IMG/VR virus record: IMGVR_UViG_3300031227_000439 | Coordinates: 1 to 23,512 of that record | DNA from: a virus | Reading direction: 5' to 3' (one strand) | DNA: 23,512 nt | In this document: positions 102-13,923 of the stretch, piece after piece | How the letters are laid out: each line of letters begins with the position of its first letter | How positions within the stretch are numbered: position 1 is the first letter of the stretch | Position numbers and translations under genes: made by a program | Notes under the pieces: generated by a model | What the model saw: only the letters and a program-made list of their open reading frames with translations | Told to the model about the DNA's origin: nothing | Database searches by the model: none

Positions 102-314
102 ATGGATGACAAATTAAAGTATTTCAATTGGTTAATAGATAATAATTATAGTAAAGAATCGCATCAAACGGTATATAACTATCTTTCACAATACAAAATA
201 CATTCTGATATATTTATACCCAAAGGGTTAAGTATTTCAAATGATTACAATAAAGAATTCCAACAATTTCTAAGGGAGAAAAAATTAACTCGTATACTAA
301 ATGAAGGAAATTAA
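102..314 (+). CDS. Hypothetical 70-aa protein
   Basis: Small soluble protein of 70 residues, rich in Asn, Lys and aromatic residues, with no domain I recognise. I chose ATG 102 over the in-frame TTG at 93 because the bases before 102 (TAATTGATAATT) resemble the A/T-rich leader before many starts in this window. Its end overlaps the start of the GIY-YIG gene by 14 nt, so the two are probably co-transcribed and translationally coupled. It lies on the opposite strand to the structural cluster and may belong to an early or accessory unit that continues to the left. Function unknown. Confidence 0.55.
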   Translation: MDDKLKYFNWLIDNNYSKESHQTVYNYLSQYKIHSDIFIPKGLSISNDYNKEFQQFLREKKLTRILNEGN

Positions 315-648
315 GATATATAAGATAATAAATAAGGACACACAGGAAGTGGTATATATAGGTTCAACAAAGAGATCTATTAAACAGAGAGGGAAAGAAC
401 ATAAGCAGAATATAATGCACCCAGAAAAGCACAAGTACATTAGGGACAATTCCTGCGAAATTAGGGTGATTGAGTATTGTGATTTAGCTGATAAGCGCAA
501 GCGAGAAGACTTTTGGATTAATTTATGGAAGCCAAGATTTAACAGAAGATTTGAGATTGCTAAGAAGAGAGTTAATGTTAATAAACAAATTGAGATGAAG
601 ATGGCTGATGATAAGGCAAAAGAAATAATCAAAAGATTACAAAAATAA
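301..648 (+). CDS. GIY-YIG endonuclease domain protein
   Basis: 115-aa protein with a GIY-YIG nuclease core. The first half-motif appears as IYKI (residues 6-9) and the second as VYIGST (18-23). The helix QRGKEH supplies the expected Arg30 and His34. Glu69 in REDFWINLW fits the metal-binding glutamate, followed by an Asn in KPRFNRRF. The C-terminal tail (about 85-115) is Lys-rich and may contact DNA. There is no separate recognition domain, so this is a minimal nuclease like the free-standing homing-type or repair nucleases common in phages. Known of the family: it cuts DNA with one metal ion. Inference: a selfish or accessory nuclease; its target is not visible. It is convergent with the structural genes, with a hairpin just after its stop. 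Confidence 0.85.
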   Translation: MKEIKIYKIINKDTQEVVYIGSTKRSIKQRGKEHKQNIMHPEKHKYIRDNSCEIRVIEYCDLADKRKREDFWINLWKPRFNRRFEIAKKRVNVNKQIEMKMADDKAKEIIKRLQK

Positions 649-778: not shown

Positions 779-882
779 TTATTTTTTTGGAGTAGCACAA
801 CCTCCTCTACCTTTATTTACTCTTTTTCCTTTTCCTGATCCATCTTTTTTGGTGTTCCTTTTTTTACTATTTTCTTTTTCAT
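779..882 (-). CDS. Lys/Gly-rich microprotein read through a possible -1 frameshift
   Basis: From ATG 882 the zero frame gives MKKKIVKK, then a short tail ending after 21 residues. Codons 6-8 contain GT A-AAA-AAA G, a classic slippery heptamer. Shifting to the -1 frame there gives a 34-aa product ending with NKGRGGCATPKK and TAA at 779, with a DGSGKGKR segment in the middle. The -1 frame has no ATG of its own, only possible ATT or CTT starts. The ATG at 882 has the same TAATAAAAATT leader as large genes here, so it is probably a real start. This could be programmed frameshifting, a one-base homopolymer error in the assembly, or a decayed gene. The strongly basic product could bind nucleic acid. 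It would be the last gene of the cluster. Not recognised with certainty. Confidence 0.45.
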
Positions 883-932
883 AATTTTTATTATTTTTAA
901 TAAGTTAAGCCACTTAATTTCTATTTATTTTT

Positions 933-1460
933 TTATAAGTCTGAACCAAGATACCATCCATTGTCAAAACTTTTTTCTCCATTACAACCAATAAAAGTTG
1001 CATATAATGGATATGTTGCTATATTTGTTTCTAAATAATCTAACATTCTGGCTACATATGATTCAGCATCATTTTTATAACCTTTTCTCCTATTTTCATA
1101 GGATATTTTATTCACTGAATAATCTGAATGTTGTTGTTCTATTCCTTTATTTGTAATTTTTGAATCAAAATCTGGGGCTGATCTATATAATGTATAATAT
1201 AATAAAATATATTTTATATAATTATCTCTTAGAATTTGATTTTTTTCTACAACATAATCATCAATATCACCACCTGGATTTTCAGCATAACCTGTATATC
1301 CTGATATAATTTCTGCTAGTAAATTATCACCTATAACATATCTCAATTCTATATCTTGTGATTCTAAGATGTGCATGGATAAAAATTGTGTAGATACATT
1401 TTGCATGACTGGTGAATAATCTTTAATGAATTGTTCCCCAATAAGTTTAATTTTCGCCAT
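933..1460 (-). CDS. Head-tail connector (neck) protein
   Basis: 175-aa soluble, mostly helical protein. The N-terminal part (about 22-60), with T-Q-F---HI-ESQDIELRYVIGDNLL, matches the layout of head-tail connector proteins in Bacteroidota phages, which bind below the portal. The central IKYILLYYTLYRSAP and the later Arg-rich helix with YVARMLDYLETN-ATYPLY also fit that family pattern. Its ATG overlaps the portal stop as TAATG, which indicates translational coupling and is the usual place for a connector. The C-terminus carries an aromatic NGWYLGSDL tail. Assignment rests on pattern and position; another neck or head-completion protein is possible. Confidence 0.6.
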   Translation of the reverse strand: MAKIKLIGEQFIKDYSPVMQNVSTQFLSMHILESQDIELRYVIGDNLLAEIISGYTGYAENPGGDIDDYVVEKNQILRDNYIKYILLYYTLYRSAPDFDSKITNKGIEQQHSDYSVNKISYENRRKGYKNDAESYVARMLDYLETNIATYPLYATFIGCNGEKSFDNGWYLGSDL

Positions 1461-2752
1461 TATTTTTTAATTTTTTTTATAATTTTCTTAATAAAATTAT
1501 CATCAGTTATTTCAACTTCATCACCTTTATCCTCTATAACTTCTTCTGTTGTGTCTTTTATTTCATCTTCTAAATCTTCATATCCTAAATAATTTCTTCT
1601 TTCGTTTGTAGTTAAAACATCAGTACTTATAACAGTATTAATCATATTCATATTTGGGTTTAGAATTTCTATTTCAGACATTTTATTTATATTCATAATT
1701 TTATTTATTGTTAATAAAATTAATTTTTGATATGGTTTAATATATGATTCAATAAAAACTTGTGTCGCACTAATTAATTCTTTTGTATTTCCCAAACTTC
1801 CTGGTTGTTCTAAAGAAGCTAAACATCTAGGTATTTGATGCCCACTTACTATATTATTAGTTATAGTTTTTTCTAAAACTTCAAATTTCTTATCCATATT
1901 AGAAATTTCTAATTGTTTAATTTGTGGAGCATTTTCACCGTCAGAATAAAAAACAATTACTCTACCAGCATTATCACTACCTTTATATTTCGCATTTATA
2001 CCTTTCATGAAGGTATCTTTTTCTTCCATAGAAGGTTCAACACCTTCAAATATAACCATCATACCTGGATTGAATCCATTATATAAGGCTGAATTATGAA
2101 AATTACTAATTTCAACATTTGTGTCTAAATCTACTAAACTTGAAATGTAATCTGGATAAGCATAATAATCATTTGATGGTTCATCTTTTTTAATATACAA
2201 AATTTGAGGTTTACTCTTATTCTTTTCTGTATTAAAAGATACAAATTTTATTAAACCATCTTCCATTGTATATCTTCTATATTCATCTGTTTTTTCATTT
2301 GAAGGATTATAATAAAATTCTTCAACATTATTTTTACTATTAATTTTTCCACTTCTCATTTTATAAAAAGGCATGTGATATATTTCAACTATACTTTTAC
2401 CATTCCTACTCCATATAATTTGTAAATATGAACCACCATAAATAAAAAAGTCTAGTCCTATTTGTGATAAAAGTTGTTCCATATTTTGTTGTGGATTAAC
2501 TTTATCAATAAATTTTTGTGTTTTCTTATCAATTTTATCATCTACATTTTCAAACATAATTCCTGTACCATTAAACATATTTGTTTTCTTTTGAATAATT
2601 GCTCTATGAATTGAACTATTTGTATAATAATTTAATAGATCATAAGGTAATCTATTATCTTTACCAAAAGACACAAGATCATTTTCTTGATCTTCATATA
2701 TTACTGGTTTCTCATAATTTTTATCAAAAAAATTGAAGGCTTGTATATCCAT
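1460..2752 (-). CDS. Portal protein
   Basis: 430-aa protein with HK97/SPP1-type portal features: an N-terminal segment on orienting input (DNRLPYDLLNYYTNSSIHRAII), a wing-domain-like FIYGGSYLQIIW around residues 101-115, and a long stem/crown region. Near the C-terminus is VLTTNERRNYLGYEDL, the turn often seen as VLTxNExRxxLGLxPL in phage portals, followed by an acidic then Lys-rich tail. Portals form the dodecameric ring at the capsid vertex through which terminase pumps DNA. The leader before the ATG closely resembles that of the scaffold gene. Unusually, it lies downstream of capsid and tail genes and far from terminase. Confidence 0.85.
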   Translation of the reverse strand: MDIQAFNFFDKNYEKPVIYEDQENDLVSFGKDNRLPYDLLNYYTNSSIHRAIIQKKTNMFNGTGIMFENVDDKIDKKTQKFIDKVNPQQNMEQLLSQIGLDFFIYGGSYLQIIWSRNGKSIVEIYHMPFYKMRSGKINSKNNVEEFYYNPSNEKTDEYRRYTMEDGLIKFVSFNTEKNKSKPQILYIKKDEPSNDYYAYPDYISSLVDLDTNVEISNFHNSALYNGFNPGMMVIFEGVEPSMEEKDTFMKGINAKYKGSDNAGRVIVFYSDGENAPQIKQLEISNMDKKFEVLEKTITNNIVSGHQIPRCLASLEQPGSLGNTKELISATQVFIESYIKPYQKLILLTINKIMNINKMSEIEILNPNMNMINTVISTDVLTTNERRNYLGYEDLEDEIKDTTEEVIEDKGDEVEITDDNFIKKIIKKIKK

Positions 2753-9053: not shown

Positions 9054-10883
9054 TTATTTCCAATCAGCAGGAATAGCAGCATAATTTGTTAAATTAGTAG
9101 CACCATCAAAACAATCAGTTCCTGTTGGCTCCGGGACTAAATCCCATAACGCAGGTGCATTTCCTACCAAACCAGTTCCTATACCATCAAAACAATTTGC
9201 GTATGATGTAGCACCTGTACAATTATCAAATAAACCTGAAGGTATGCCTGTTATTGATGTATCATCCCTAAAAGTGTTTGAAAAACTTTCTACTTTTGTA
9301 TTATAATCAAATAACCCACTTGGTATTGCTGTTAATGATGGCATCTTTGAAAAGGCATAACGAAAAGTTGTAACCTCTATATTATTATCAAACAAATTAT
9401 CTGGTATTGTTGTTAATGATGAGCAATATCTAAACATAAAACTCATATCAGTAACACCAGTATTATAATCAAATATACCACTTGTGATTCCTGTTATATC
9501 AGTGACATAAAAAACACCAGAAAAGTTTGTCACTTCTGTATTATATCTAAATATATCTACTGGTATATCAGTTATATTTGTATTAGCAAAACAAGAATCA
9601 AATCTTGTCACTTCTGTATTATATCTAAATATATCTACTGGTATATCAGTTATATTAGTATCATGAAAACAAAAAGCAAAGTTTTTCGATAATATATTAT
9701 TATCAAATAAATTATCTGGTATAGATGTAATTGGTGTTTTATTAAAAATATAAGAAAATTGTAAATTATTTATATTATTATCAAATAAACCACTTGGTAT
9801 TTCTGTTATATTTGTTTCAGCGAAGCAATAATCACATCGTGTCATATCAACAACATAATCAAATAAACCTGATGTTATACCTGTTAAATCACTTCTATTA
9901 AAAGTAGCATAGAAATCCCAGGCTTTTATTGTATATCTAAATAAATCAGTTGGTATTTCTGTTATACTTGTGCTATCAAAAGTCCTTAAAAATTTTAATG
10001 CTTCTGTATTATACTTAAATAAATCATCTGGTATAGATGCTAATGAAGAACATAAATAAAATGTATATTGAAATGTAGTCACTAATGGTGTATTATCAAA
10101 TAGACCAGAAGGTATAGATGTTATAGGTGTGTCTTCAAAAACACTTGCAAAATTTACAGTAAGAACACAATTATCAAATAACCCAGTAGGTATAGATGTT
10201 ATATCTGTATTATCAAAACAACTTTGAAAATTTCCAGCATTAACAGAATTATCAAATAACCCACTTGGTATAGATGTTATTGGTGTATTCTGAAAAGTTT
10301 TTACAAAACTACCATTAACAGTACTATAATCAAATAAACCACTTGGTATAGATGTTATATCTGTTGTAGAAAATGCTTCTGTAAATGATCCTGTTACTCT
10401 ATTATAATCAAATATACCACTTGGTATAGATGTTATAGATGTGTTCTTACAAAATACATTAAAACTTAAAACCTCGGACAATCTACCATTTTCATCTGGT
10501 AATGTTGTTAAATTAACACAATTATTAAAGTTTATTTGCTTCAATCTCATATTATTCCCAAAGCTTTTTATTTCAGTTATAAAAGGAGCAATAGCTCCAT
10601 TATTTACGTAAAATGTCTCACATTTACCTTCAATTGATATATCATATGTTCCGGCAGAAGCAAATATATGAGTATTATTTGCATCATTATAAGTAATTAT
10701 ACTATCACTTATAGTTCCATCACCCCAATTAACTATATAATTATATTCATAACCAGAAGATGTTGGGAGACTTATAGATTGTGCTGCTCCTACCACTACC
10801 GTAAATATAAAAGGTTCTATTGTATAATTTAACAAATTATTATTATCTGTTAATAAACTATTATTTATTTTTAATAATCCCAT
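9054..10883 (-). CDS. PKD plus leucine-rich-repeat adhesin/tail fibre
   Basis: 609-aa protein. Residues about 22-95 form a PKD-like domain, with NWGDGT at 52-57 and HIFASAGTYDISIEG. From about 112 to 560 there are 16 repeats of about 25 residues, typically ITSIPSGLFDYNT-VTSF---F--T, resembling BspA-like leucine-rich repeats of surface proteins. The C-terminus (PALWDLVPEPTGTDCFDG and NYAAIPADW) looks like a cap. Known: PKD and such LRR domains bind proteins or glycans on surfaces. Inference: a receptor-binding or surface-adhesion component of the virion, because it lies between a fibre and the holin. There is no signal peptide, which fits a virion part rather than a secreted host protein. It has recent internal duplication. 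Confidence 0.75.
   Translation of the reverse strand: MGLLKINNSLLTDNNNLLNYTIEPFIFTVVVGAAQSISLPTSSGYEYNYIVNWGDGTISDSIITYNDANNTHIFASAGTYDISIEGKCETFYVNNGAIAPFITEIKSFGNNMRLKQINFNNCVNLTTLPDENGRLSEVLSFNVFCKNTSITSIPSGIFDYNRVTGSFTEAFSTTDITSIPSGLFDYSTVNGSFVKTFQNTPITSIPSGLFDNSVNAGNFQSCFDNTDITSIPTGLFDNCVLTVNFASVFEDTPITSIPSGLFDNTPLVTTFQYTFYLCSSLASIPDDLFKYNTEALKFLRTFDSTSITEIPTDLFRYTIKAWDFYATFNRSDLTGITSGLFDYVVDMTRCDYCFAETNITEIPSGLFDNNINNLQFSYIFNKTPITSIPDNLFDNNILSKNFAFCFHDTNITDIPVDIFRYNTEVTRFDSCFANTNITDIPVDIFRYNTEVTNFSGVFYVTDITGITSGIFDYNTGVTDMSFMFRYCSSLTTIPDNLFDNNIEVTTFRYAFSKMPSLTAIPSGLFDYNTKVESFSNTFRDDTSITGIPSGLFDNCTGATSYANCFDGIGTGLVGNAPALWDLVPEPTGTDCFDGATNLTNYAAIPADWK
9160..10550. repeat. Sixteen coding LRR repeats of about 75-81 bp
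   Basis: DNA of the LRR domain repeats with a period of about 25-27 codons; the block GGTATAGATGTTAT recurs many times. Repeats 11 and 12 are almost identical: 9527-9578 and 9605-9656 match over 52 nt at a 78-nt offset. Confidence 0.85.
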
Positions 10884-10890
10884 ATTTTAT

Positions 10891-13800
10891 TTATTCTACT
10901 AAAGCTATTTTATAAAGTGTTCCACCTATCTCAACCTCTACAAAATCAGTTGTGACTAATGTTACTCCACTTGTTATTACATCACCTAATTTCCATGTGG
11001 CTGAACCACTTGAAGGATCCGATGTTGTTAATGTTGAAACATTTGTATTTCCATTTATGTTAGAATCTGCATGTGAGACATATAATTGTCCGCCATAAAC
11101 AATAGCTGTCTGTATCTTACCATCACTTGACATTGCTATTCCTCTCCAAGATCTAGAACTATCTTTTGCTGTCCATGTATATCCATAATCATTTGAAATA
11201 TAAATATAACCAGTTGCAACAGCTGTCTGTATCTTACCATCACTTGACATTGCAATATCTCTCCAATCTTCTGATGTTGCTTTTGCTGTCCATGTATATC
11301 CATAATCATTTGAAATATAAATATAACCATTATCAACAGCTGTCTGTATCTTACCATCACTTGACATTGCAACACTATCCCAAGTTCTTGAACTATCTTT
11401 TGCTGTCCATGTATATCCATAATCATTTGAAATATAAATATAACCATGATATTCAACAGCTGTCTGTATTTTACCATCACTAGACATTGCAATGCCACTC
11501 CATTCTTCTGATGTTGCTTTTTGTGTCCATGTATATCCATAATCATTTGATACAAAAATCTCACCATGATATTCAACAGCTGTCTGTATCTTACCATCAC
11601 TTGACATTGCTATTCCTCTCCAATATCTAGAACTATCTTTTGCTGTCCATGTATATCCATAATCATTTGAAATATAAATATAACCAATTGCAACAGCTGT
11701 CTGTATCTTACCATCACTTGACATTGCTATTCCTCTCCAAGATCTAGAACTATCTTTTGCTGTCCATGTATATCCATAATCATTTGAAATATAAATATAA
11801 CCAGTTGCAACAGCTGTCTGTATCTTACCATCACTTGACATTGCAACACTATCCCAAGTTCTTGAACTATCTTTTGCTGTCCATGTATCACCTATATTAC
11901 TCAAATATAATTGATTTTCAGTTATTCCAACTCTACCAAAATAAGCACCACCATGTAATTGTGATAAAGCCATTTGGTCTGTACTCAAATAACTTTGGTT
12001 TTCTGTACCACCTGTTATATTACCACCAATAGCTAAATTATCTGTTGATGTTACAGGTGAAATTATTGATCCACTTCTATCCCAATATGAATTTGCATCT
12101 ACATAATTTGTAATAGCAGAAGCTGTAGCTAATTCATTAGCTGTTGATCCTGAATCTAAAACATCTACTATATCTGTTATTAAATCACCATCATTAAATG
12201 ATATACTATCAGCAGAAAAACCACCATCTACTACTGTATCACCACTTAAAATAATTGTATCACCACTTGTAGATAAACAAGAACAGGTTTTATTAATCCA
12301 TGTTCCACCACTATAATATAATGTTTGTCCTTCTGTAGGACTTGTAATTGTTGTGTCTGTTAAATTTACTAATGTTGCTCCATGTATTGTTGTTGCTGAA
12401 ATTGTATCTACTATAAGATGTTGAACATTTAATTCTGAAATTAAAGTGTCTTCAACATCAGTTAATCCAGTTATTGTTTCTCCATCAAAAATTATATTAC
12501 CATGTAATGTTGTGTCACCAGTTATAGTTAAATATCCTTCAACATCCAAACCTACATACATTTCAATTCCGTCTTTAGTAATTAACATTCGCTTTGATCC
12601 AGCACTATCATTTATACCAGCATCACTTGTCCAAAATTGTAATTTAGTAGCAGAATTATAAGAACCCAAACCACCACCAAAATAAGTATTATTTTCAGCT
12701 GTAGTATTATATGAGAAAAATGCCATTACTGGATCATTTGTTGTGTAATAATTAGAACATACTATTCCACCTTGTGAAACAGCACTACCTGTTATTTCTC
12801 CTACTTTTATAAAGCTATCAGTACCATTTATTAAATTTATATTATCATATACGTTTAATTCTCCACCAATACTTAAACCACTAACATTATATGTCAATCC
12901 AGTAGAACCAATCAAATTATTTCCATCACTATAAGCGACTTGTGTATCTGTTATTGTTGTTCCAGTAGTTCCACCTACATAAGCCTTTATAGCATCTGCT
13001 GTTGCTAATTCATTTATTGTTGCTGATACACTCAAATCTGTTGTTATTCCACTTATTGTTTGACTATCAAAAATTATATTACCATTAAATGTAGTGTCAC
13101 CTGATATAGTTAATGAAGATGTTGGTGAATTTGTATTTATACCTACACCATTTGAAGCTCTAATTAAAAATTGTGATTGATCTGTACTATTAAAATCTGT
13201 ACCAGTTCTATCAGACCAAGTAAAAGTTCCTGTATGATTTGAACCAGCTCTATTACCAATTGCAAAAGAATCAGTTCCTGTAGCAGTATTTGTAGTACCA
13301 AATGAAAAAGAATTATTACCTTGGGATATACAATTATACCCACCAGCAAAAGATCTATAACCAACATTCAATATATCCCATTGATCTGCTGTTACAAGTC
13401 CTATTCTAAAAGCAGCTTTGTTTGGGATCCACATAAATCTTGTTCCTGAACCAGTTATTGGTAAAGAACCATTCGTTCCTTCTGAATATATTGTACCATT
13501 AACTTTTAATTCATTAGTGTTAAAAGTTAAATCAGCAGATCCAACTAAATTAGTCCCATCACTATAAGCGACTTGTGTATCTGTTATTGTTGTTGTTAAA
13601 TCATCTAAACTTGTATCACCTGAAAGGAAATTAGCATCTGTCTCTGTTTCTGTATAGTATCTTTCATCATGATTGTGTGTAGGATCCCACTCAACATCAG
13701 TAGTTCCTTCCATTGTAAATGTTACAGGATTTGTATTTCCAGAACCACTTACAGCAGTCAAATAATAATTTCCAGTTAATTCACCTTCAATATCATATAC

Positions 13801-13923
13801 AGCTTTTGCTGTTGCTAATTCATAATGTGTTGAAGCAGAACTAACTAATTCAGTTATTCCAGTTATATTTGTAACACCACTAGCATCAAATGTGTTATTA
13901 ATTTCAAATTGTTTTACTCTCAT
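10891..13923 (-). CDS. Large tail fibre with a seven-repeat Asp-box beta-propeller
   Basis: 1010-aa protein. The N-terminal two thirds consist of phage-fibre modules, with ELATA-AI-Y, TITDTQVAYSDG twice, GDTTFNGNIIFD and GDTTLHGNIIFD. From about 671 to 953 there are seven repeats of 39-40 residues, each with a core like SNDYGYTWT, then W-GIAMSSDGKIQTA. SNDYGYTW is an Asp-box (S-x-D-x-G-x-T-W). Six copies are canonical; the first blade (SNIGDTW) lacks the Asp, and a last strand LYVSHADSN probably closes the ring. Seven repeats predict a seven-bladed propeller. The C-terminal WKLGDVITSG and VEVEIGGTLYKIALVE looks like a fibre tip or trimerisation end. Sialidases use the same fold, but no catalytic residues are evident, so glycan binding is more likely than cleavage. 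Role: host recognition at the tail tip. Confidence 0.8.
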   Translation of the reverse strand: MRVKQFEINNTFDASGVTNITGITELVSSASTHYELATAKAVYDIEGELTGNYYLTAVSGSGNTNPVTFTMEGTTDVEWDPTHNHDERYYTETETDANFLSGDTSLDDLTTTITDTQVAYSDGTNLVGSADLTFNTNELKVNGTIYSEGTNGSLPITGSGTRFMWIPNKAAFRIGLVTADQWDILNVGYRSFAGGYNCISQGNNSFSFGTTNTATGTDSFAIGNRAGSNHTGTFTWSDRTGTDFNSTDQSQFLIRASNGVGINTNSPTSSLTISGDTTFNGNIIFDSQTISGITTDLSVSATINELATADAIKAYVGGTTGTTITDTQVAYSDGNNLIGSTGLTYNVSGLSIGGELNVYDNINLINGTDSFIKVGEITGSAVSQGGIVCSNYYTTNDPVMAFFSYNTTAENNTYFGGGLGSYNSATKLQFWTSDAGINDSAGSKRMLITKDGIEMYVGLDVEGYLTITGDTTLHGNIIFDGETITGLTDVEDTLISELNVQHLIVDTISATTIHGATLVNLTDTTITSPTEGQTLYYSGGTWINKTCSCLSTSGDTIILSGDTVVDGGFSADSISFNDGDLITDIVDVLDSGSTANELATASAITNYVDANSYWDRSGSIISPVTSTDNLAIGGNITGGTENQSYLSTDQMALSQLHGGAYFGRVGITENQLYLSNIGDTWTAKDSSRTWDSVAMSSDGKIQTAVATGYIYISNDYGYTWTAKDSSRSWRGIAMSSDGKIQTAVAIGYIYISNDYGYTWTAKDSSRYWRGIAMSSDGKIQTAVEYHGEIFVSNDYGYTWTQKATSEEWSGIAMSSDGKIQTAVEYHGYIYISNDYGYTWTAKDSSRTWDSVAMSSDGKIQTAVDNGYIYISNDYGYTWTAKATSEDWRDIAMSSDGKIQTAVATGYIYISNDYGYTWTAKDSSRSWRGIAMSSDGKIQTAIVYGGQLYVSHADSNINGNTNVSTLTTSDPSSGSATWKLGDVITSGVTLVTTDFVEVEIGGTLYKIALVE
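11066..11911. repeat. Seven near-identical 117-120 bp propeller repeats
   Basis: The block CTGTCTGTAT begins at 11106, 11223, 11340, 11460, 11580, 11697 and 11814, giving steps of 117, 117, 120, 120, 117 and 117. Most differences cluster in short blocks: SSR versus TSE after the Asp-box, and ATG, EYHG, DNG or AIG before the next strand. Confidence 0.9.
12923..13594. repeat. Duplicated fibre module, two copies 633 nt apart
   Basis: An identical 39-nt tract lies at 12923-12961 and 13556-13594 (encodes TITDTQVAYSDG). Related copies of the GDTT--GNIIFD block also occur near 12480 and 13065, indicating module duplication inside the fibre gene. Confidence 0.8.

Follow-up and report, generated by a model that had tools for sequence, protein, structure and literature searches.

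The window analyzed here, a stretch of 23,512 nts of viral DNA (positions 1 to 23,512 of IMG/VR record IMGVR_UViG_3300031227_000439), very probably contains a conserved single-frame microprotein gene that lacks one base of an A-run, owing either to an assembly or sequencing error or to a private, probably inactivating mutation, and not a decoding signal. Judging from the homologous sequences compared, this is a real and conserved gene that ordinarily occupies one frame, and the window copy is broken by one base. With that base missing from the A-run, the zero frame ends early and the conserved core falls into the -1 frame. What appeared to be a recoded gene is reduced in this way to a one-base homopolymer difference, as shown by a near-identical relative. 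A small, highly conserved protein remains that matches nothing in the standard libraries searched; it is present both on viral contigs that differ widely in base composition and in archaeal metagenome-assembled genomes (MAGs), and its length of only about 37 residues makes it easy to test.

On the minus strand of the window, a 21-codon ORF runs from the ATG at 882 to a stop codon ending at 817, and is preceded by an A-rich leader comparable to those before the portal protein gene and the gene of a DUF6712 protein. Both the ORF and the leader, likened there to those of large genes in the window, had been pointed out in an earlier reading of the letters alone (the sequence-only reading), and both are indeed seen in the DNA. 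Between 904 and 782 the -1 frame is open; a stop codon follows at 779-781, and the frame reads ...DGSGKGKRVNKGRGGCATPKK. Its continuation to 779 without an ATG, also claimed earlier, was confirmed by translation, and a search of the frame (904 to 782) for ATG, GTG, and TTG codons found none. Against the family HMM, the -1 frame alone scored 42.2 bits, compared with 54.1 bits for the intact protein of the near-identical contig described below. The claim that this downstream frame is real coding sequence is borne out by its high conservation in the family. The window copy matches the family profile, and it has no single intact frame with a start codon. The microprotein gene lies downstream of the DUF6712 and portal genes on the same strand, and the closest annotated matches of the portal protein are found in Nonlabens phages (26% identity). 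Further downstream, a GIY-YIG nuclease gene (window 301-648; Pfam E 4.1e-8) is encoded on the plus strand, opposite to the microprotein gene.

A portal-protein scan of viral contigs yielded one contig, IMGVR_UViG_3300025697_000198 (L001), which is the one near-identical contig available for comparison. Over positions 1-2507 of the window (2.5 kb) it is 99.8% identical, with 4 mismatches and 2 gaps, and it encodes MKKKIVKKGTPKKDGSGKGKRVNKGRGGCATPKK, a protein of 34 residues, in one ATG-initiated frame (L001:1627-1731). In the base-by-base alignment, the differences consist of one base in the second of two A-runs within the gene and a small patch upstream of it. A variable-length pattern spanning the junction of the two frames had matches in L001's contig only. 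The sequence-only reading had located the shift at the first, seven-base A-run, but this place is wrong: since the zero frame gives the family residues KGTPKK and the -1 frame gives DGSG..., the break must lie at the second run, 15 bases downstream. The features concerned are summarized in the table. The intergenic patch, in its L001 version, is a near-palindrome.

Table. Features of the split microprotein gene and its surroundings (window coordinates; L001 is the near-identical contig)
Feature	Position	Strand	Remarks
First A-run, seven bases, GTAAAAAAAGG	859..865	-	Run named by the sequence-only reading; identical in L001; not the break site
Second A-run, six bases, CCAAAAAAG	845..850	-	Frame breaks here; L001 has one base more at this place, as do six other members with the same context
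Zero-frame part of the microprotein gene	817..882	-	MKKKIVKKGTPKK from ATG 882, then out-of-frame residues up to the stop; KGTPKK is the family N-terminus
-1 frame part, conserved core DGSGKGKRVNKGRGGC and stop	779..844	-	HMM score 42.2 bits
Small intergenic patch with four substitutions and one gap	920..928	.	Apart from the second A-run, the sole place in 2.5 kb that differs from L001; corresponds to L001:1580-1589
Upstream gene, Pfam DUF6712	933..1460	-	Pfam E 7.3e-15
Portal protein gene	1460..2752	-	Pfam PF04860 E 2.6e-16; PHROG portal E 5.5e-27

The family has the core KGxPKRDGSGxGxRxNxGRGGC, and its proteins are about 37 residues long. Viral sequences were scanned with the degenerate pattern GSGxGxRxNxGRGGC, which covers only codons downstream of the junction, and at least 120 viral stretches were found. 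In all of the 120 listed stretches, the motif and its upstream flank are in one frame, nearly all of them in short proteins; a start codon is present 5-20 codons before the core in 117 (110 ATG, 5 GTG, and 2 TTG), and the median length is 37 residues. Another three scans, narrower in scope, yielded 17, 44, and 20 stretches, overlapping in part. Pooling of the scans, after 18 duplicates had been dropped, resulted in at least 151 distinct viral members, L001 included; four loci that repeat the window or L001's contig (L002-L005) and an annotated phage locus (L126) were left out of this number. A same-frame junction together with an in-frame start was observed in every listed viral member (151/151), the start being 5-25 codons upstream in 147 and further upstream in the other 4. 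The four residues before the core are P[KR]x[DN] in 142 of the 151, and the other nine are same-frame variants. Runs of 7 or 8 A's at the junction occur in nine of the listed members, including L001, all of them in frame. Among the matches listed, the window copy is the sole broken one, and, as far as these sequences tell, no other copy shares its split. Moreover, the conservation extends to flanking residues outside the search pattern, such as the P at position -4 (103 of 106 distinct sequences). The viral contigs carrying the family range from 28 to 64% GC (158 loci).

Programmed -1 ribosomal frameshifting at the A-run, by which the two frames would be joined as the normal mode of expression, could account for a downstream frame that is conserved yet has no start codon, and the 21-codon ORF does contain two slippery heptamers in the zero frame, A-AAA-AAA and A-AAA-AAG, the second of which has the letters of the strong slippery heptamer of bacterial dnaX. 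The sequence-only reading was correct in that A-AAA-AAA stands in the zero frame; the run it took for a slippery site is not unusual, however, as in the window 21 ordinary ORFs together contain 68 slippery heptamers in frame under the same definition. No downstream stem-loop was detected (MFE -5.4 kcal/mol, z 0.16; equalled or bettered by 106 of 200 shuffled sequences). An AGGA is located 5 bases before the heptamer, nearer than the Shine-Dalgarno-type spacing of roughly 10 bases in dnaX frameshifting. In comparison with dnaX-type sites, the window copy shares the letters of the zero-frame heptamer A-AAA-AAG, whereas it has no stimulatory structure, its split is not conserved, and its relatives are intact in a single frame. 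Because L001 and all 151 listed viral members are single-frame, programmed frameshifting is not supported, and as the normal mode of the family it is refuted. We therefore rejected it, considering also the lack of structure and the commonplace nature of the heptamers, and regard it as very improbable. Single-frame relatives and a longer A-run had been named by the sequence-only reading as what would tell against its interpretation; both are found in L001, and the single frame in 151 of 151 listed members.

Given the dnaX-like A-AAA-AAG and the upstream AGGA, some ribosomes could still make the full-length product from the window copy. A true deletion in a living virus might then be tolerated, with low-level slippage or a non-programmed (corrective) frameshift at the A-run supplying some full-length protein, and the remaining run is indeed a slippery heptamer in the right frame. 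Corrective and 'savior' frameshifting are described in general terms in Atkins et al. 2016 (PMC5009743), where bacterial transcriptional slippage is discussed for runs of nine A's or T's, against the six A's here; moreover, no stimulators were found, and the split arrangement is present in no related copy among the matches listed. A real deletion would in principle allow low-level corrective frameshifting, but six A's without stimulators make a weak case, and we consider this explanation unlikely. With regard to the quality of the record, the 21 large ORFs of the window are intact despite 74 homopolymer runs of at least 6 bases within them, so the record is not generally error-rich. These intact ORFs make a careless assembly somewhat less likely, as does the scarcity of other differences from L001 (a single patch in 2.5 kb), and a true mutation is thus possible. 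The nearby difference at 920-928 may reflect two real haplotypes, which would suit a tolerated deletion, or one poorly resolved spot. A chance likeness would fit two conserved-looking pieces of AT-rich intergenic DNA that are short, low-complexity, and lysine-rich, but this idea is hardly credible in view of the 42.2-bit HMM score of the -1 frame, when 106,310 frames from 100 Markov-1 random windows produced no match to the family HMM at E<=10, and it is refuted by a family of at least 151 homologues whose flank is conserved outside the pattern (P at -4, 103/106). Among the three readings offered earlier, namely a tiny protein made by frameshifting, an error in the homopolymer, and gene decay, the programmed frameshift is contradicted by L001 and the 151 of 151 single-frame listed members, while a homopolymer error or private mutation stands once it is moved to the second run.

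We also scanned 84,980 species genomes with the pattern and found it in 21 stretches, mostly from archaeal MAGs. In Micrarchaeota, the motif forms the C-terminal tail of a DUF134 protein in 6 of 6 stretches (loci L131, L132, L133, L135, L140, and L142; Pfam E 1e-26 to 3e-32). Free-standing copies were identified in Asgard archaeal MAGs (loci L145, L146, L139, L143, and L137). Cellular genes are among the neighbours of L145 (a riboflavin-transporter component and a pyridoxal-phosphate enzyme) and of L139 (a GH57 enzyme), and one neighbour of L143 matches an IFT52 GIFT domain. At some other loci the neighbours match phage terminases, and part of the archaeal copies may therefore be viral. Within one Asgard class, 5 of 83 genomes carry the gene, as do 5 of 97 sampled genomes of the phylum to which a Micrarchaeota genome belongs; because of this patchy occurrence, a core cell component of the ribosomal-protein kind was rejected as a candidate.

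Among 106 distinct members, Lys and Arg together make up 35% of the residues, Gly 24%, and acidic residues less than 3%, with a mean net charge of about +12; only four aromatic residues occur in total, and exactly one Cys is present in 104 of the 106. AlphaFold2, run with 99 sequences, gave no confident fold (mean pLDDT 58.9), and the microprotein is predicted to be disordered. Pfam, PHROGs, and NCBIfam gave no match at E<=10 for any of five queries: three members, a composite, and the protein of L001. The L001 protein had no match among solved structures. A tblastn search of the 34-residue protein against phage records is uninformative, since the low-complexity filter hides the query. A 38-residue composite query had no match in 50,697 phage records (tblastn); its control produced 141 local matches at the same database size, under default tblastn settings that possibly differ from those of the main search. 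Among the papers listed on small proteins, DUF134/DUF5320, dnaX, and peptide strings, none described the family. It appears that the family is uncatalogued in the libraries searched (Pfam, PHROGs, and NCBIfam).

Several known systems bear some likeness to this family. DUF5320 proteins (PF17253) are small and Gly-rich, with a similar DG[ST]G...GRGxGxC pattern; that profile matched none of the five microprotein sequences at E<=10. DUF134 (UPF0251; PF02001) comprises predicted helix-turn-helix (HTH) proteins whose C-terminal tail is the microprotein motif in the 6 Micrarchaeota loci, whereas the free-standing microproteins scanned with Pfam have no DUF134 domain. Among phage and microbiome surveys, conserved small-gene families have reportedly been predicted by Fremin and colleagues in 2022, and such families are likewise predicted in GMSC 2024 (PMC11364881). 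The predicted families are very short conserved ORFs without known function, and the microprotein family is of the same kind.

From its composition, the disordered model, and the one fusion to an HTH protein (DUF134), we infer only that the microprotein might have a nucleic-acid-binding role. The intact protein, being basic and Gly-rich with one conserved Cys, could act as a disordered nucleic-acid-binding accessory peptide. Tentatively, the members may constitute an undescribed family of about 37 residues, disordered, strongly basic, and with a single Cys, common to many uncultivated viruses and patchily present in Asgard and DPANN archaea, which might serve as a portable nucleic-acid-binding module, found as a free gene in viruses and as the tail of a DUF134 HTH protein in Micrarchaeota.

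The genomic position of the gene was also considered. In a scan of 111 upstream and 102 downstream genes, judged by the best 25 of 106 families and the best 25 of 117, the immediate neighbours often match PHROG head-tail adaptor/connector, portal, and terminase families, as an uncontrolled tally. In 46 records longer than 15 kb, drawn from 80 listed, a PF17289 terminase was present in 8, its distance from the gene being about 0.2, 2, 6, 7, 7, 14, 27, and 59 kb, and a PF04860 portal in 5, about 10 to 61 kb away. As there is no fixed position, a place beside head or packaging genes was dropped as a clue to function.

Some further observations were made on these records. One 43 kb contig (G041, the record of locus L073), the only two-copy record among the 46 examined, carries two nearly identical motif copies near its ends (118-162 and 39840-39884), which are perhaps an end repeat or a duplication. 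In the window itself, the protein encoded at 9054-10883 contains many ITSIPSGLFDYN-like repeats that look like leucine-rich repeats, and the protein encoded at 10891-13923 has several WTAKDSSRxWRGIAMSSDGKIQTAV-like repeats and is probably a structural or fibre protein.
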